Part shown: positions 25,423 to 41,098 of the stretch, in pieces | Layout of the letters: each line of letters starts with the position of its first letter | How positions within the stretch are numbered: position 1 is the first letter of the stretch | Source of the DNA: Pseudomonadota bacterium | GTDB lineage: Bacteria; Pseudomonadota; Gammaproteobacteria; Burkholderiales; Thiobacillaceae | Assembly (NCBI GenBank): GCA_021802555.1 | Contig: JAJZRU010000010.1 | Coordinates: 1 to 64,000, forward strand | Reading direction: 5' to 3' | DNA length: 64,000 nucleotides | The notes under the pieces: model-generated | The model's database searches: none | Seen by the model: only the letters and a program-made list of their open reading frames with translations | Told to the model about the DNA's origin: nothing | Position numbers and translations under genes: made by a program

Positions 25423-25498
25423 GGGTGCTTAGCTCAGTTGGTAGAGCGTCGCCCTTACAAGGCGAATGTCGGCGGTTCGAACCCGTCAGCACCCACCA
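25423..25498 (+). tRNA. tRNA-Val (anticodon TAC), integration site
   Basis: A 76-nt tRNA with encoded CCA. Acceptor arms GGGTGCT / AGCACCC pair fully, the D arm is TAGCTCAGTTGGTAGAGC, and the anticodon stem TCGCC / GGCGA encloses loop CTTACAA with anticodon TAC. Its part from the anticodon loop to the 3' end is repeated exactly at 41050-41098, marking it as the attachment site of the element to the right. The insertion regenerates an intact gene. Confidence 0.96.
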
Positions 25499-25500
25499 AA
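25452..25500 (+). repeat. attL: 49-bp direct repeat (3' half of tRNA-Val)
   Basis: The 49 bases from CCCTTACAAGG to CACCCACCAAA are identical to 41050-41098. The base before the repeat differs (G versus T) and the sequence after it diverges (TAATGC versus CCTTAT). Such a tRNA-3'-end duplication is the standard footprint of tyrosine-recombinase integration. Confidence 0.95.
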
Positions 25501-30773: not shown

Positions 30774-32990
30774 ATGGCCTGGCCGCGCCGCGACCCCCCG
30801 CCCCACCTCCGGGGCGATCCCCAGCCCTCACGGCTGGGTGAGGGTTTTGCCGTCGCCGCCCTGGGCAGTGCCGCATCTGTAGGACTGGCCACTTGGGGAG
30901 TCAGGAACTGGATCATCGGCAAAAACCCTTCTTGGTCCACCGTGCCCCTGATCCATTTCCCTAGTCTCGCCGCCAAGGCCATCCAGGCCGCTCCCTTGGA
31001 CGTGGCCTGGCCCGCTTGGCTCATGGTGGCCGGTGCGGGCGTCGGGATCGCCGCCAGCGCCGTGGCCGGCTACTTGGCCGGCCGGCCCAGGGGTGGATGG
31101 GCAGGCGTCGAGTGGAAAGCCGGGCCGGTTTTGCAAACCGAGCCGCCGCCGCCCGACCCCAAGGCCGGCGGCATCGAGATCGAGATCGCCCCAGGTTGGC
31201 GAATCAGCCAGCGCGACGAGACCCGCATGTTCGAAATCATCGGCTCGACTGGTTCGGGCAAAACGACCGTCATTCGTCCACTCATGGATCAAGCGGTCGA
31301 GCGAGGCGACCGGTGCCTGATCTGGGACACGAAATCTGATTTTTCAAAGGCACTCAAGAAATGCATCATTTTCGTTCCTTGGGACAAGCGGGGGGCCAGG
31401 TGGCGGATTGGCCGAGACCTGAATAGCAAAACGAAAATCCAGGGCTTTGCATCAAGACTGTGCCCAGTGCCAAAGTCCGGCGATCCCATGTGGGCGGCGG
31501 CGTCGGCGGCGGTGGTGATCGCGGCGTGCCTAAAACTTGCAGAGGAAAAAAAAGGAAACTGGTTTTTGGTAGACCTGCGCGGGCAACTGTTGGAAATGAT
31601 CCACTCCCTGGAGCATTTGCAGACAGTCGTCCAAAAGCATTACCCGGAAGCCTCCGGCATTGTGGTCGATTTGAAATCGAAAACCCTCAACTCAATCGTA
31701 GTTCAGCTAGTGGCAACGCTGCAAAACGTCCTTATGTTGGGCGAATTGGACGGGGAACTGGACAAGGAACTTTCGAAAACAAATCGGCCAGCTTTTTCTT
31801 TTTCCATAAATCAATACCTTGCCCTTGATGACGCGCGGCGCTGGCTGCCGCTGGTCATGCCCGGCAACCCAGGGGCGCCAGGGCTGGTGGCTGCCTATGT
31901 CGGGGCTGTGGTTGATGTGGCCGCCGACGTCCTCGTGTCGAGGCCCGAGCAACCGCCCCAGGCGGGCAGGTGTTGGCTGTTTCTGGATGAATTTCCGCAG
32001 CTTGGGCGAATCGACAGCGTCATCCGGTTGCTGCTTGTCGGCCGGTCAGTGGGCGCCAGGGTTGTCCTTGGTTACCAAACTCCGGCGTCGGTTGTGCGAA
32101 CGTCGGATGAAGAGACGCTTCGAGAAATACAGGCGAACACTTCAATCAAAATCTTTTGCCAGATTCAGGATCACGAGGGCCGGAAGGCGGCCAGTCAAAC
32201 ATTGGGGAAAAGCCATTGGCGAGTATGCCGAAGAACCATAAGCAACAACAGCGTCGGTGGTGTCGGGGCGCCCGGCAGCACAACAAGTACGCAATGGCAG
32301 GATGTTGAGATCGACTGCGTGACCCCAGAACGTCTGGGCGAAATCAGCCCCGATGATTATGGCGTCGAGGCGATTTTCCGAGTGGGCAAGCTCGATCCCG
32401 TTTTTCTCAAGTTGGAACACCTTGAGAAACGCGAATTCCGGGCGGGCCGCGACCCCTTGGACGTGGCGGCGCCGAAGCTGTCGTTGCACAACGAACAACC
32501 GGCATCGCCACCTGCTGCCGCCACCACGGTGGTGCCGCCCCAGGACGACACCACGGCGCACCACGCTGCCGCGCAGCCACAACAGGAGGAGCATGCCCAA
32601 GCTGCCGACGATGACATCACCGCGATGATGGCCGGCCGCCCGGCCGGGGGGCAGGTGCAGGATTACCTGCCCAGCCCGCAAATGCTCTCAAAGCTGGAAG
32701 GCGAGATCGATGGGCCTGTCGAAATGGCGGCTGATCACTTGGCCACTATGGCGGTGGACGCCGTCGCGCCAGGGCTGGGGAGCGCATTGGAAATGCTCGA
32801 CACTGTTGCGAAGGTCGTTCAATCCGGCCAGCAGGTCGGTGCCCCGGATGCTTCTCAGCCATTGCCGATCCATTCTTCCGGCGCGGCTGAAGAGCCCGCA
32901 GAGCCCGCTGCGCCGGCCAAGAAAAAACGCAAGTTCCGCCGCCGCCGTGACGCCGAGGCCGAGCCTGAAACTGAGCAGGAGATCGACTAA
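30774..32990 (+). CDS. type IV coupling protein (TraD/TrwB family)
   Basis: A 738-aa inner-membrane ATPase that would link the relaxosome to a secretion channel. Two N-terminal membrane helices lie at about 25-45 and 79-100. The ATPase has Walker A GSTGSGKTT from residue 157 and Walker B WLFLDEFPQLGRID near 401. Conserved DTKSDFS and GYQTPASV segments match TrwB. The last 180 residues are Ala/Gln-rich and end in a basic RRRRDAE tail, probably for relaxase contact. The stop overlaps the relaxase start (TAATG). It begins 3 bp after the RHH gene. Confidence 0.88.
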   Translation: MAWPRRDPPPHLRGDPQPSRLGEGFAVAALGSAASVGLATWGVRNWIIGKNPSWSTVPLIHFPSLAAKAIQAAPLDVAWPAWLMVAGAGVGIAASAVAGYLAGRPRGGWAGVEWKAGPVLQTEPPPPDPKAGGIEIEIAPGWRISQRDETRMFEIIGSTGSGKTTVIRPLMDQAVERGDRCLIWDTKSDFSKALKKCIIFVPWDKRGARWRIGRDLNSKTKIQGFASRLCPVPKSGDPMWAAASAAVVIAACLKLAEEKKGNWFLVDLRGQLLEMIHSLEHLQTVVQKHYPEASGIVVDLKSKTLNSIVVQLVATLQNVLMLGELDGELDKELSKTNRPAFSFSINQYLALDDARRWLPLVMPGNPGAPGLVAAYVGAVVDVAADVLVSRPEQPPQAGRCWLFLDEFPQLGRIDSVIRLLLVGRSVGARVVLGYQTPASVVRTSDEETLREIQANTSIKIFCQIQDHEGRKAASQTLGKSHWRVCRRTISNNSVGGVGAPGSTTSTQWQDVEIDCVTPERLGEISPDDYGVEAIFRVGKLDPVFLKLEHLEKREFRAGRDPLDVAAPKLSLHNEQPASPPAAATTVVPPQDDTTAHHAAAQPQQEEHAQAADDDITAMMAGRPAGGQVQDYLPSPQMLSKLEGEIDGPVEMAADHLATMAVDAVAPGLGSALEMLDTVAKVVQSGQQVGAPDASQPLPIHSSGAAEEPAEPAAPAKKKRKFRRRRDAEAEPETEQEID

Positions 32991-35854
32991 TGCTGAGCCT
33001 CCACGGACTTTCTGGCACCGCCGCCGCCGACGCCGCCCGCATCGCCGACTACCCCCGCGAAGACCGAGAGCGCCAGCAGGAGCAGGCCAACCAGGCCGAA
33101 GACTACTACAGTGCGGGTGGCGCCCCCAGCGCCTGGATGGGCAGCGGCGCCGCCGCCATGGGCCTGGCCGGCTCTTCTGTAGAGCGCCAGGCCGTTTTAA
33201 ATACCATGCAGGGCCTCGATCCACACACCGGTGAGCCCGTGGTGCAGGGCGCCGGACCGGCGAGAAGGTACGGCACCGATTTGACTTTTTCTGCTCCGAA
33301 ATCCGTCAGCCTGGCCTGGGCCATCGGCGACGAGAAAACACGCGCGTCTATCGAGGCCGCGCAGCGCCTGGCAGTCGCCAAAACGCTGGAGTACATTGAA
33401 TCCGAACTCTCGCTTGCCCGCCGTGGTCGTGGTGGTCACGAACGAGAATCGGCCAAGCTTGTAGCCGCGACTTACCAGCATGGCTCATCCCGCGAGCGCG
33501 ATCCTCAATTACATACGCATGCCGTATTGATGAATTTGGGCCAGCGTGTTGATGGTAGTTGGGGCGCCATCGAGTTCGGGCAAGTCTACGACAACAAAAT
33601 GTATTTGGGGGCCGTCTTTAGAGCGGCTTTGGCTCAAGAGCTGGTTAACCTGGGTTACGCCATCGAGCCGGACAAAACAGGCACCTTCCGAATTTCTGAT
33701 AGTCCACGCGATGTTGAGTGGGACAACTCCCGGCGCCGTCAGCAAGTCGAGGCCGCCCTGGCAGAGTCCGGCTTCAAGGGTGGGAAGGCGGCAGAGGTAG
33801 CTGCGAAAGCCACCAGGCGGGGCAAGGAAATCACTGACGCCGACACACTCAGGCGGGAATGGTCGGAACGCGCCGCCGCGTTTGGATTCACTCCCGAAGC
33901 GGTCGATGCGTTGCGAACCTACCAGCAGGCCGCCGAACCCGATCCCCCCGCCATCCTGGCCGGCCTCACGCAAAACCAATCGACGTTCAACCAGGACGAA
34001 TTGCGCATGGCCGCGATGGTGGCGGCCGGGCAGTCTGGGCGAGGCATCGAAGCCGCGCGTGACCTGGAGGCCGCCTGCCAGGCGCAGGCCGTTCAGCTCC
34101 GGGCGCCAGACGGTGGCCTGCATTTCACGACCAGGGAAATCCTCGAAATTGAAAAGAGCGTCGTTGCTGCCGGCAAGCGCCTGTCCACCAGCCAGGCCGG
34201 GGCCATCCCAGCCGCGACGGTGGCCGCTGCCATCGAAAAATTTGAGGCTCGGGTTGGCTTCAAGCTTTACGACGAACAGCGGGCTGCACTGGAATACATG
34301 ATGGGCGGCGGCAGTCTCAAGCTGATTCAAGGGGATGCCGGCGCTGGGAAAACGACCATTGCGGATGCTGCCCGAATGGCCTGGGAAAACGCGGGTTTCA
34401 GGGTGTTGGGTTGCAGCCTGGGAGGCAAGGCGGCGAGCGGTCTCCAAAAGGAGGCCGGCATTGAATCCAGTACCTTGGATTCTCTCTTGATGCGTCTCGA
34501 CAAAGGAGCTGAGGCGCTTGATGCCAAGACCGTCGTCGTCATGGACGAGTCCGGCACGGCGGGCGCCCGCCACATGTCTCGTTTGCTGGCCCATGTGGAG
34601 CGGGCCGGTGCGCGCCTGGTGTTGGTCGGCGACACGAAACAGTTGGCCGCCGTCGCGGCAGGCACGCCCTTCCGCGACTTGCAAAAGTCCGGTCAAGAAG
34701 TTTTTCACCTGAAACAGAACAATCGACAGATCGTTGAAAAACTTGAACGAATTCAGGCCCTCATCGGCGAAGGGAAGATGGCCGAGGCCCGCAAACAGCT
34801 TGCCCGGCATGGCCTCAAGATCAAGGACGTTCCCCAGGCCCTTGCGGAAGCGCGTGGCACCCGTGCGGCAGTGAATGACGCCGCCGTAGGTGACATCCGC
34901 AAGGCACTGGAAAGACTCGTCGAGAACAAGGCTGTCCATATCGCTCCCGTTGCCGATGGTCTGCCCCAGACCATTGAACAATGGGCGCGGCGGGGAGGCG
35001 AGCTGCGCCCACAGGAAACCTTGATGTTGGCCAGTACGCGGGCCAGCGTCGCACGCCTCAACGACGCCGCGCTGGAGCGTTTGCGTGAGAAAAATTTTCT
35101 TGGCCCTTCCGCTACCACCATGGTGCGCGACCGTGAAGGAAACAGCCTTGGACAGCGCGAATTCAGCGAAGGCGGCAGGATCATTTTCAAAAAAACGGAC
35201 CTTCGTGGCCTGGGTGTCAGCAACGGTGAGCTTGGCACGATCCAGCGCATCGATCACGGGAAGAATGGCCCGATTCTGACGATCCAGGTTGACGGTGGTC
35301 GCGTCGTGAAAATCGAACCAGACGCCCCCAAGCCCGAAGATTGGAAGTCCGCAAAAGCCGCGCCTGGACTTGGCTACAGCCACATCGAGCACGGCTACGC
35401 CATGACTGTCCACAGCGCCCAAGGCGTCACGGTAGACCGGGCCGTGGCCTATGTCGATGCTGGCCCCTTGATGTCCAAGGAACTCGCATACGTCGAACTC
35501 AGTCGTGTCCGAATTTCCACCGACGTTGTTTTCTCATTCGAGACCATCGCCCGCGAAGAGGCCGCGCACGACATCGATCCGGCCGAGGCCGAACCAGACC
35601 TCGACCGCGTGAAAAAGATCATTGCACGCATGGAACGGTCTGCTGAAAAAACGAGCAGCCTTGATTTTGAGGTTGTAAACGAACCTCTCGAAAAATCCGT
35701 TACTGCACTTGAGGCCGAGGCCGCCGCGCCCACCGCGCCGCAGCCGCAACCCGAACCCGCGCCGGCCACGCCCGCGCCAGAACCCCAGCAACAGCAACCC
35801 GCACTTCAGCAGGAGATCGAAAATGTCCTCGACGAACTCGAACTTGAGCCGTAA
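32990..35854 (+). CDS. MOB-F relaxase-helicase (TrwC/TraI family)
   Basis: A 954-aa two-domain protein. The relaxase domain has candidate nicking tyrosines Tyr21 and Tyr39/Tyr40 and the metal-binding histidine triad His164, His175, His177 (QH...DPQLHTHAV), with the same 11-residue spacing as TrwC. The family stretch RYGTDLTFSAPKSVSLAW is intact. A RecD-like helicase follows, with Walker A GDAGAGKT at 448-455, MDESGTAGARHMSRL, LVGDTKQLAAV and motif VI MTVHSAQGVTVDRA. The C-terminus is a Pro/Ala/Gln-rich tail. It nicks oriT and unwinds the transferred strand. Confidence 0.93.
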   Translation: MLSLHGLSGTAAADAARIADYPREDRERQQEQANQAEDYYSAGGAPSAWMGSGAAAMGLAGSSVERQAVLNTMQGLDPHTGEPVVQGAGPARRYGTDLTFSAPKSVSLAWAIGDEKTRASIEAAQRLAVAKTLEYIESELSLARRGRGGHERESAKLVAATYQHGSSRERDPQLHTHAVLMNLGQRVDGSWGAIEFGQVYDNKMYLGAVFRAALAQELVNLGYAIEPDKTGTFRISDSPRDVEWDNSRRRQQVEAALAESGFKGGKAAEVAAKATRRGKEITDADTLRREWSERAAAFGFTPEAVDALRTYQQAAEPDPPAILAGLTQNQSTFNQDELRMAAMVAAGQSGRGIEAARDLEAACQAQAVQLRAPDGGLHFTTREILEIEKSVVAAGKRLSTSQAGAIPAATVAAAIEKFEARVGFKLYDEQRAALEYMMGGGSLKLIQGDAGAGKTTIADAARMAWENAGFRVLGCSLGGKAASGLQKEAGIESSTLDSLLMRLDKGAEALDAKTVVVMDESGTAGARHMSRLLAHVERAGARLVLVGDTKQLAAVAAGTPFRDLQKSGQEVFHLKQNNRQIVEKLERIQALIGEGKMAEARKQLARHGLKIKDVPQALAEARGTRAAVNDAAVGDIRKALERLVENKAVHIAPVADGLPQTIEQWARRGGELRPQETLMLASTRASVARLNDAALERLREKNFLGPSATTMVRDREGNSLGQREFSEGGRIIFKKTDLRGLGVSNGELGTIQRIDHGKNGPILTIQVDGGRVVKIEPDAPKPEDWKSAKAAPGLGYSHIEHGYAMTVHSAQGVTVDRAVAYVDAGPLMSKELAYVELSRVRISTDVVFSFETIAREEAAHDIDPAEAEPDLDRVKKIIARMERSAEKTSSLDFEVVNEPLEKSVTALEAEAAAPTAPQPQPEPAPATPAPEPQQQQPALQQEIENVLDELELEP

Positions 35855-37108: not shown

Positions 37109-37330
37109 ATGAACAACCCGACCCCCACCATCCCCATCCCCACCCGCATCCCCTTGCCGAGCCCCGCCGCCCTGGCGGCCGTGCCGGACATCCTGCCGCC
37201 GGAGGTGGAGCGGCTGCTTGATTGTCTAGAGCGAGTTGCCGAAGCGTGGCAACCTGCCACGCCCGGCGATGCCGAGTTGCTGGACAGGCTGGATGCTGCC
37301 AGGGCGTCCGCTTTTGGCGTTACGCGGTAA
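37109..37330 (+). CDS. small hypothetical protein, 73 aa
   Basis: AAAGGA precedes the ATG at 37109. The N-terminus is Pro-rich (NNPTPTIPIPTRIPLPSP), followed by an acidic helix (PEVERLLDCLERVAEAW). Its stop codon lies inside the first of five GTTAC-type palindromes (37319-37331). Family unknown. Confidence 0.55.
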   Translation: MNNPTPTIPIPTRIPLPSPAALAAVPDILPPEVERLLDCLERVAEAWQPATPGDAELLDRLDAARASAFGVTR

Positions 37331-37656
37331 CATTCGGAGAGTTACGCTGTAACGTAAAATAGTTATAGTGTAACTTTATTCAGCCTCGTATTCGGCGCCC
37401 ATTTTTTCGGCCCAAGCCAGGATTGCTTTCTCGACAATCTCCCTTTTTTTAATTCCGTCCGCCTGGTCGCAAAGCCGCGCCAGGGCTGCGGCGGCGCTCG
37501 ATGACAGCATCACTTGGAGCCTGGTCAGCAGCAGGCCGTCGGGGTCGTGGAGCGCCCGCTTCCTGTATTCTTTTTGCCGCTCCGCATTGCTCTTTCTCAT
37601 GCTTTTTCCCTTCCAGAAATAGTTACATTGTAACTATTCTAATGTTACGCTGTAAT
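37319..37656 (+). repeat. five copies of a 13-bp palindrome GTTAC-n3-GTAAC
   Basis: Copies: GTTACGCGGTAAC (37319-37331), GTTACGCTGTAAC (37341-37353), GTTATAGTGTAAC (37362-37374), GTTACATTGTAAC (37622-37634) and GTTACGCTGTAAT (37644-37656). Starts within each group are 21-22 bp apart, two helical turns. Three copies lie just 3' of the minus-strand repressor-like gene and two in its promoter region, so they look like operators bound cooperatively by its product. Confidence 0.82.
37376..37600 (-). CDS. small repressor-like protein (ribbon-helix-helix type), 74 aa
   Basis: The product begins MRKSNAERQKEYRKRAL, a start shared by small plasmid and phage regulators, then TRLQVMLSSSAAAALARLCDQ and IKKREIVEKAILAWAEKM give a strand-helix-helix pattern. 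The gene is flanked on both sides by the 13-bp palindromes, which points to autoregulation. It is the only gene in this part of the element on the minus strand, opposed to the transfer-side genes. Base composition is slightly lower in GC than its neighbours. Fold assignment is by eye. Confidence 0.65.
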   Translation of the reverse strand: MRKSNAERQKEYRKRALHDPDGLLLTRLQVMLSSSAAAALARLCDQADGIKKREIVEKAILAWAEKMGAEYEAE

Positions 37657-38059
37657 AAGTCAAGGGGGGGCTGGCGCCGAAGGTTTTTTGCTTGCGCGTG
37701 GGTCGCGCCGAAGCTGACATTCCGCCTACACTGCACCCACGGTATCGCCAGGTCGCTGCGAGCCGCGCAGGGCGGCAAGCAACCCCTCGCGCCAGCCCTG
37801 ACGGGCCGGGGGCTCTGCTACGCGCCGCCCCCTCTGTCACTCCGGCTTGCAACCGCCCTAGTCGCGCGCGGCTCTCCGCTCAAGGGATGGGCGATACCGA
37901 GGGTGCAGATTCAACAGGCGGAAGACAACCGCCTTTTTTCGTCGTTCTGTTTTTTCTCCCCCCCCCTCCGCCCCCCTTCGGGGGGAACGGGCTCTCCAAG
38001 GGTGCAGGTTTTTAAACGGCGCATTCCGTGCCGAACCACTCCCCCAGGAGCAAAACGCC
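37601..38059. other. 459-bp gap with hairpins
   Basis: No credible gene. Left part: promoter and two operator copies of the minus-strand regulator. Right part: very C-rich, with two structures. The first is GGCGG-AAGACAA-CCGCC followed by six Ts (37917-37939), the second CCCCC-TTCG-GGGGG (37972-37985). The stretch GAGGGTGCAG recurs as AAGGGTGCAG at about 37900 and 37997. The right end should hold the promoter of the DUF6573 gene. Confidence 0.5.
37917..37939 (+). terminator. intrinsic terminator
   Basis: Stem GGCGG / CCGCC with a 7-nt loop, followed directly by TTTTTT. The stem is only 5 bp but all GC. It reads in the plus direction, though no plus-strand gene ends nearby, so it may end a non-coding transcript. 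Confidence 0.5.
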
Positions 38060-38497
38060 ATGACCTATTCCCACCCCTCCGCGATGTCCGACATGATCGA
38101 GATTTTCGGCTCCCCGATCCATACTTACAGCCGTGCCCAAGCCCTGGCCGATGGGGTCTTGGTGGACGTGTCAGAAGCCGCCGCCGAGCGCGGCTTCAAG
38201 GTGCCCGTAGCCATGACCAGGACGGTCTGGGAGGACTGCGTAGCTTGGGCCGAAGCCGACAGCGACCGCCAGACTTACCAAGACCAGGAAGGCCGCCTGC
38301 ACGACGTTCTATGGCTGGCCTGGACGTATGCCCGCATCGCCCGGCGCCGCGATACCGACACCATCACCTACGAGCTGCGGCGCGTGCCCAGGGGGGGCCG
38401 TGCCACCCGTCCCCGGCGGGTGGTGCTGACTCTCAAGATCCACGGCGGCGACCACGGCGAGCCGGTCTGCACGATCATGATGCCCGGCGAGGGCTGA
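38060..38497 (+). CDS. DUF6573-family protein
   Basis: A 145-aa protein whose N-terminal half carries the DUF6573 signature: TYSRAQALADGVLVDVSEAAAERGF, then VPVAMTRTVWEDCV and GRLHDVLWLAW. The C-terminus ends VLTLKIHGGDHGEPVCTIMMP. The family is common on plasmids and integrative elements and has no known function. AGGAG precedes the ATG. A copy of its last 15 codons is found again at 38878-38930. Confidence 0.8.
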   Translation: MTYSHPSAMSDMIEIFGSPIHTYSRAQALADGVLVDVSEAAAERGFKVPVAMTRTVWEDCVAWAEADSDRQTYQDQEGRLHDVLWLAWTYARIARRRDTDTITYELRRVPRGGRATRPRRVVLTLKIHGGDHGEPVCTIMMPGEG

Positions 38498-39402: not shown

Positions 39403-39902
39403 CTGCATCAGTTCATTCCATAGATCCTAATGCTGATATAAATCGTTTCCTGTCAGATTCAGCCGACGATGTTACGGTTGCAAGAGCTACGACACCCATC
39501 ATGAACGCACCAACGCGTGAGGAATTTGAGGCCAGGATAGAGGCCGTTGAAGCCAGGATGGACACCCGCGTCGTTCAGATGACCGGGGAGCTTCATGGAT
39601 TCGTGACAGAACAGCGCGCTCGCGATATTGAGCGCGATAAGCGTTTTGAAGAACGCGATAAGAGGATTGAACTTCTAGTAACGAATGCAGAACAGTCCGC
39701 CGACGTAGCTCGTTCGCTAAAATCAAGCATGTGGGCAGCATCGGCCGCCATTATTCTTGCCGTGATCGGTACGGTTGTGGCTTCATACTTCGCAAACCAA
39801 CAATCCAATTTGGCTATTGTTCAGTCGGTCATCGCTGCATTTCAGCAAGGTGCGCAGTCTCCCAGTTCCGCCACTAACAAACGTGGCGCACTCAAACCAT
39901 AG
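39399..39902 (+). CDS. coiled-coil membrane protein, 167 aa
   Basis: Translationally coupled to the zinc-ribbon gene (ATGA). Residues about 35-100 are a long charged coiled coil (REEFEARIEAVEARMDTRV, RFEERDKRIELL), followed by one membrane helix at about 110-130 (MWAASAAIILAVIGTVVASYF) and a short tail. The topology is a cytoplasmic coiled coil anchored in the inner membrane. Proteins of this shape are common in mobile elements, but I know no function. Its 3' end overlaps the integrase gene by 11 bp, tail to tail. Confidence 0.65.
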   Translation: MTASVHSIDPNADINRFLSDSADDVTVARATTPIMNAPTREEFEARIEAVEARMDTRVVQMTGELHGFVTEQRARDIERDKRFEERDKRIELLVTNAEQSADVARSLKSSMWAASAAIILAVIGTVVASYFANQQSNLAIVQSVIAAFQQGAQSPSSATNKRGALKP

Positions 39903-40932
39903 TGCGTTTCTTGATGGGTTTTTTGGTGACTGCTTTAGCATCTTCCGCCTGCGCAAGTTCCTTGGCGATTTCCTTGACGGACGGGTGGTAGTACCGGTTG
40001 GTCATTTTTGGGTCACTGTGTCCAATTATTTTTGACAGCTTCTTTCCGTCTAGCACTTTACCAAGCCTACTCGTTGCCTCATGCCTGCTGTCGTGCAGCC
40101 GAATATCAGTAAGGCCGGCACGGTTTCTTGCTCGTATAAATGCCTGGGTGATGGAGTTCGCTTTCACCTTGAAAACGCGTTGGTCTTCGTCATCGGCGGG
40201 AGGGCGGGATAAAGATTTGAGCAATCGGACAGCGGCCGGAGATAAAGGCACTTCGCGGGGGCTTCCGTTTTTTGTTTTTTCAAGAAGAATCACTCGATCT
40301 TGAAGGTCTATTAGATTCCAGGTCAATGACGCGATCTCCCCCCGTCGCATTCCGCTCTCTATTGCCAGGCGCAGGAAAGCGGCAAGAACCGACGAGCCCG
40401 TGTTCTTGCAGATTTCCGCAATTTCTTTGTCGCTAATCCTACGGGCTCGCGCATCATTCACCCTCGGCAGTTCCGCATCCGCTACCGGGTTCACCAAGCC
40501 TTTCATTTTCCAGTTTCGCCGGGCCACGGTGAACAAGTTGCGCAGCACATTCAAGCGTCGGCGAATAGTTCCTGGTTTGAGCCCTTCTTGTTCCCACTTT
40601 TTAATGATCGATTCAACGTCCCCAGACTCGATCTTTGACAAGGGAAGCTTTGCGAGCGAAGTCTCGCTGAGGATGCCTATAACCGACTTTTCTTGCAGGG
40701 CGCCACGCTTCGATTCTGTACGCTCTTCCTTATAACGTTCCAGTGCAGCAGCGAGGGTGGTGGCCTTGGCCTCTTGCATGTCATCCCACCGGCCACGCTC
40801 GACACGGCTTTCCTCGCGCCGAGCCCATGCCTCGGCATCACTCTTGAGGCGGAACGTCTTCGAGGTCGAGACGCCATCGCGCCGGATGCGGGCTCGAATT
40901 CTGCCGTTCGGTTGTGTTATAAAAGTGGCCAT
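39892..40932 (-). CDS. int: tyrosine recombinase / integrase of the element
   Basis: A 346-aa phage-type integrase starting MATFITQPNGRIRARIRRDG (arm-binding domain); a longer frame to 41031 crosses the att region and is rejected. Catalytic residues in order: Arg in ESGMRRGEIASLTW, Lys in LEKTKNGSPREVPL, HxxR in RLHDSRHEATSRL, His in IIGHSDPKMTNRYYHP and the nucleophilic Tyr in the same stretch. It reads leftwards from the right end, with its start only 118 bp from attR. It should catalyse integration into tRNA-Val. No ribosome site is evident. Confidence 0.93.
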   Translation of the reverse strand: MATFITQPNGRIRARIRRDGVSTSKTFRLKSDAEAWARREESRVERGRWDDMQEAKATTLAAALERYKEERTESKRGALQEKSVIGILSETSLAKLPLSKIESGDVESIIKKWEQEGLKPGTIRRRLNVLRNLFTVARRNWKMKGLVNPVADAELPRVNDARARRISDKEIAEICKNTGSSVLAAFLRLAIESGMRRGEIASLTWNLIDLQDRVILLEKTKNGSPREVPLSPAAVRLLKSLSRPPADDEDQRVFKVKANSITQAFIRARNRAGLTDIRLHDSRHEATSRLGKVLDGKKLSKIIGHSDPKMTNRYYHPSVKEIAKELAQAEDAKAVTKKPIKKRTMV

Positions 40933-40933
40933 G

Positions 40934-40990
40934 GGTGGTGTAGGTGGTGTAGGTTGATGGTGGGTAAAACGGTGTCCCCATTTTGTCCCC
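40934..40990 (+). repeat. repeats upstream of the integrase, candidate arm sites (right)
   Basis: GGTGGTGTA is repeated in tandem at 40934-40942 and 40943-40951. GTGTCCCC (40972-40979) and TTTGTCCCC (40982-40990) follow; the latter word also occurs three times near attL. Both sets lie within about 120 bp of attR and partly in the integrase promoter, so binding could also autoregulate the integrase. Confidence 0.5.
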
Positions 40991-41049
40991 GAATTTTGAA
41001 ATAATCCGGAAACCCGCACCAATCCTAGCACATGGTGGGTTGATTTTCT

Positions 41050-41098
41050 CCCTTACAAGGCGAATGTCGGCGGTTCGAACCCGTCAGCACCCACCAAA
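41050..41098 (+). repeat. attR: 49-bp direct repeat
   Basis: Exact copy of 25452-25500, covering the anticodon loop to CCA plus three bases of tRNA-Val. The 5' half of the tRNA is absent here, so it is not a gene. Chromosomal sequence leading to ppiD resumes at 41099. Confidence 0.95.

Follow-up and report, generated by a model that had tools for sequence, protein, structure and literature searches.

A small leftwards-transcribed gene in the window (the whole 64,000-nucleotide stretch of DNA analysed) encodes a repressor-like protein of 74 residues and is flanked by five copies of the palindrome 5′-GTTAC-n3-GTAAC, a layout that recurs with variations at the genes of its homologues. We lean towards autorepression at two levels as the explanation: the protein would block initiation at its own promoter and would also act as an elongation roadblock at sites at the 3′ end of the gene or inside it, leaving RNA that lacks a stop codon and a product that takes the tmRNA route.

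Exact palindromes are located at 37319–37331, 37341–37353 and 37622–37634, and copies with one mismatch at 37362–37374 (GTTATAGTGTAAC) and 37644–37656 (GTTACGCTGTAAT). The original prediction of five palindromes flanking a small gene was right about their reality and positions, but did not mention that two of the five are imperfect. Measured from start to start, the three 3′ copies are 22 and 21 bp apart and the two 5′ copies 22 bp. The predicted 21–22 bp phasing is found in both groups here but not across the homologues, where the upstream pair is spaced by 22–33 bp (p = 0.25); as judged from the sequences compared, it is particular to the window element and its sister. By chance one would expect 0 exact copies in the window, and three were reached in 0 of 100 dinucleotide shuffles; six copies are found if two mismatches are allowed, with 5.7 expected, and as this is the chance level the significance of the palindromes rests on the exact copies and their clustering. 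The genome-wide scan that had been proposed finds only eight exact copies in the entire 2.77-Mb genome (two for a reversed control pattern), seven of which are around the window gene (three) and a 95%-identical paralogue on contig C24 (four); the eighth lies alone on contig C37 and looks like a chance occurrence. At up to one mismatch there is no copy in the window, and hence none in the 15.6-kb element described below, beyond the five at the 74-residue gene. Of the 64 exact sites within 267 kb surrounding 19 family loci, 59 are at the gene for the protein itself. Both results argue against the suggestion that the sites form a switch between the transfer and accessory halves of the element.

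The gene is part of an integrated element of 15.6 kb delimited by 49-bp exact direct repeats, an attL-type copy (25452–25500) in the 3′ part of a tRNA-Val gene (25423–25498) and an attR-type copy (41050–41098). It encodes a tyrosine integrase (39892–41031, minus strand; Pfam PF00589, E 8e-26), a TrwC-type (MOBF) relaxase (32990–35854, plus strand; PF08751, E 2.5e-76) and a TraD-like coupling protein (30774–32990, plus strand; NCBIfam TraD_Ftype, E 3.5e-32, under the family cut-off), and has the character of an integrative mobilizable element, with the absence of a full transfer apparatus judged from the predicted genes. The transfer-side genes are transcribed rightwards and end with a 73-codon gene (37109–37330, plus strand) that meets the leftwards-transcribed 74-codon gene (37376–37600, minus strand) across a gap of ~45 bp. 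The sister element on contig C24 has the same layout from relaxase to repressor with a different integrase, and conserves the 73-codon gene. A DUF6573 gene (PF20213) is present at 38060–38497, and a similar open reading frame lies beside the repressor gene of the sister element.

Profile searches place the 74-residue protein in the ribbon-helix-helix (RHH) superfamily. The profile, built from 20 relatives, finds CopG in the PDB (E 0.005), with weaker matches to ParG (E 0.23) and MazE7; two family members match RHH_1 (best E 1.7e-6) and eight of the 20 relatives match PF10723 (RepB-RCR_reg; best E 6.8e-7). The window protein has no match to PF10723 at the curated Pfam cut-off, and single-sequence searches with it in Pfam, NCBIfam, PHROGs and the PDB gave nothing significant; no homologues were found in PLSDB plasmids or GenBank phages. 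The AF2 monomer model contains, at moderate confidence (pLDDT 80, pTM 0.52), the helices expected of an RHH protein (residues 5–18, 34–46 and 52–67), with the ribbon stretch 19–33 modelled as coil, and Foldseek searches with it return weak matches only, some of them RHH proteins. The CopG/RepB-RCR_reg (PF10723) and CopB-type RHH plasmid regulators resemble the protein in its probable fold, in size and in N-terminal arm, but differ in that the window protein has no Pfam match of its own. CopB was considered as a relative sharing the operator and was rejected; allowing up to two mismatches, no GTTAC palindrome is found at the IncFII CopB locus. RHH proteins commonly repress their own genes.

A predicted promoter for the gene (37636–37663, minus strand; 5′-TTGACT—16 bp—TAGAAT) matches the consensus at 10 of 12 positions, with two such promoters found and 0.2 expected in shuffles, and is identical in the sister element. 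One operator (37644–37656, one mismatch) is situated in the spacer between the −35 and −10 boxes and the other (37622–37634) just past the −10 box, where transcription is predicted to start, and because of these two positions repression of the promoter would be the plain reading. The layout is conserved in the sister and similar in relatives, and the co-occurrence of gene and palindrome suggests that the RHH protein binds GTTAC-n3-GTAAC. The reading of a small autoregulated repressor gene in the original prediction is supported by the RHH profile match and by these operators over its own promoter.

The same prediction held that there are more operators than simple promoter repression needs, and the sites at the other end of the gene agree with it. 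The nearest (37362–37374, one mismatch; exact in the sister) begins 1 bp past the repressor stop codon; the next (37341–37353) is conserved in the sister; the outermost (37319–37331) is absent from it and, as had been noted, overlaps the TAA stop codon (37328–37330) of the convergent 73-codon gene. The window therefore has three 3′ sites, 1–57 bp after the repressor stop codon, and the sister two, of which the first likewise begins 1 bp past the stop codon; neither has a site inside the gene. The third operator accompanies a change at the C-terminal end of the convergent protein, which reads GVTR in the window and AILL in the sister. No second promoter is predicted at the 3′ operators in the window, and only a few weak ones at other loci.

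Relatives were gathered from genomes and viral contigs; close copies inflate the family counts, and L044, L046 and L093 are near copies to be counted once. About 20 homologues, down to 25–37% identity and located on prophage-like, mobilizable and plasmid-like DNA, have one to three promoter or upstream operators, and most have a further operator that is at the stop codon or spans it; in the 18 members tabulated the 3′ operator starts between −46 and +8 nt relative to the gene end. Thirteen homologues, including most phage-type members, have an operator inside the coding sequence, and some (L147, L148) have promoter operators only. Loci whose downstream gene is co-directional (L121, L125, L037) and those where it is convergent (L128–L130, L132, L005) alike have the 3′ operator. 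Outgroup CopG-like proteins from the same searches are without such sites. When viral contigs were scanned for paired operators without regard to the protein, 34 contigs were returned, four with a homologue at the sites. Counts from such pure DNA searches are inflated because 7-codon repeats inside phage genes mimic 21-bp pairs, and many of the pairs found (L022, L023, L028, L035, L039, L045, L048) look like such repeats and were set aside. Wider scans, also set aside, gave mostly unrelated palindrome arrays in phage DNA; many of the viral contigs L052–L078 have four GTTAC-n3-GTAAC copies spaced ~130 bp in apparently non-coding DNA with no homologue, a separate system.

Several further features of the family loci were observed. 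The exact operators away from a repressor gene (L124:1079, 1184 and 2331; L125:5282; L037:789) are possible further targets in prophage-like elements. In several relatives (L128, L129, L130, L132, L005) the repressor gene comes last in its element, facing a tRNA gene that converges on it; that of L121 adjoins a terminase-small-subunit-like gene, and in Cognatazoarcus (L005:57-5935) it directly follows an apparent type III restriction-modification pair. Three genomes each hold two repressor copies with the same operator on different contigs (G000, C24/C25; G060, L010 and L012; G852, L112 and L113), and cross-repression between elements is therefore possible.

Selection on the operators within genes acts on the DNA. 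The inside operator encodes (R/H/S/C)-Y-x-V-T between the two helices, with TAC and GTA used in 8/8 different genes each while other conserved codons are scrambled; GTA is a minor valine codon (9–26%), and resampling of synonymous codons gives P values of 0.008–0.045 per gene. Four genes with Y-x-V-T that were found later and left out when the codon rule was set (L144, L145, L151, L153) all read CGT TAC nnn GTA ACG, and loss of V-T accompanies loss of the operator in L115, L117, L147 and L148. The 3′ operator falls in three different reading frames (V-T-A-stop, G-Y-A-V-T and S-L-R-R/S-N), so that it is the DNA rather than a peptide that is kept. These patterns indicate that the inside-gene and stop-codon operators are kept by selection on DNA across divergent prophage-like and mobilizable elements. 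Given the low resolution of the tree, the ancestor may already have had the inside operator, with some members losing it later.

In the mechanism that we favour, the RHH repressor would bind GTTAC-n3-GTAAC and act mainly on its own gene. Operators in the spacer and over the start would block initiation, and those after the stop codon (in relatives also across it or inside the gene) would halt RNA polymerase already on the gene; the halted RNA would end short of the stop codon, its product, not being released in the normal way, would be degraded via tmRNA, and the outcome would be a steep, two-level negative autoregulation. RNA polymerase, on the footprint assumed for it, would be halted ~16 nt before a bound site. 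For the 18 tabulated 3′ operators, a polymerase halted at this distance would not yet have copied the stop codon. The sites are in the transcribed part of their own genes (in the window, on the assumption that transcripts extend past the stop codon), and this genome has a tmRNA. For the 3′ and inside sites an elongation roadblock fits best: the position of the site relative to the stop codon is kept, whereas the distance to the promoter, the helical phase and the orientation of the neighbouring gene are not.

Two experimental precedents support a roadblock. The small DNA-binding protein C.Kpn2I stalls RNA polymerase on its own gene at a site within its open reading frame (PMC6237814); unlike the present proteins, which are of the RHH type and combine promoter, inside-gene and stop-codon sites, it binds only inside its gene, which is called unique there, and it controls a restriction-modification system. 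At O3, LacI acts as a roadblock to transcription of lacI, and the shortened protein receives an SsrA tag (PMC3711431), as in the proposed mechanism; LacI, however, is tetrameric and from another family, O3 takes part in looping and in repression of the lac operon, and that operator is not shown there as fixed on a stop codon. Against the roadblock, RHH dimers on one 13-bp site may be weak obstacles; members such as L147 and L148 do with promoter operators alone; the window copy is without an inside operator and has its 3′ operators past the stop codon, so that stop-codon loss there relies on the assumed polymerase footprint; and no other target is seen for the repressor.

The 3′ sites could instead act mainly as a terminator or insulator, with an RNA hairpin, protein-bound or not, that ends the transfer operon and shields the repressor gene from antisense transcription. 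The two 3′ sites nearest the gene have complementary centres and in transfer-operon RNA form a stem of 14–16 pairs in the window and sister; in the window this long hairpin (37338–37377, plus strand) has a 16-pair stem and is followed by 5′-AUUC. It is present in both elements (z of −3.9 in the window, or −4.8 in a longer stretch, and −5.5 in the sister) while the promoter pair folds more weakly (z −1.6 to −2.1), G-U pairing in the transfer-operon RNA tolerates the differences between the two operator copies, the convergent genes are ~45 bp apart, and several relatives abut a convergent tRNA gene. However, the stem is largely A-T without a long U run and is not called by a terminator scan, and relatives carry a single 3′ site without a significant fold, also when the next gene is co-directional. 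As the main role this is unlikely. A secondary role is another matter: because of its RNA hairpin and its position between convergent units, the cluster in the window and sister probably also stops transcription arriving from the transfer operon, and its location at the end of that rightwards operon makes a stop to read-through possible.

Other roles for sites at both ends of the gene are less plausible. The original prediction also raised a repression loop, in which protein on the promoter and 3′ operators would contact itself and fold the gene between them. Operators at both ends of a ~225 bp gene and the 21–22 bp phasing of each group here would suit this, but promoter and 3′ operators are separated by anything from 216 to 341 bp among loci, helical phasing is not significant (Rayleigh p = 0.087, n = 16), the operators of a pair are 22–33 bp apart, and an RHH protein of 74 residues has little space for a second self-association surface, making a loop very improbable. 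There is equally little likelihood that the protein is a relaxosome accessory protein (TrwA/TraY/MobC-like RHH) with sites for transfer control. The window element does encode TrwC and TraD, the relative L123 adjoins what by eye appears to be a MobL-type relaxase, and MobC of RA3, another mobile-element RHH protein, is autoregulated through repression of its own promoter (PMC4175270). Nonetheless, MobC is encoded with a relaxase and acts in conjugative transfer, whereas here the repressor gene is outside the relaxase operon, the sites are not upstream of TraD, and most relatives are on prophage-like or tRNA-linked elements in whose vicinity no relaxase was seen. A partition or centromere-like array (ParG/Omega/StbA type), as in known systems with RHH proteins and site arrays near their own genes, is hinted at by the ParG profile match at E 0.23; with an integrated element, no ParA partner noticed, and sites inside or over coding sequence rather than in one array, it is the most far-fetched of these roles.

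Within the two-level autorepression that we favour, a more specific proposal is that bound repressor makes its own mRNA non-stop and sends the unfinished protein to tmRNA-dependent degradation, with operators fixed at the stop codon and at the Y-x-V-T codons over wide divergence and in different frames; we advance it tentatively and regard it as rather doubtful. A search of the open-access literature found no paper on this operator or on an RHH protein with intragenic roadblock operators. The usual picture of an autoregulator has operators at the promoter only. If true, the non-stop reading would represent a feedback joining transcription and proteolysis. In the inside operator the same bases constrain both a protein-binding site and a loop conserved in the protein. 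With operators kept inside the gene and on its stop codon, the family offers a small system for general questions: whether self-roadblocking adds to promoter repression, and whether a site at the stop codon recruits ribosome rescue.
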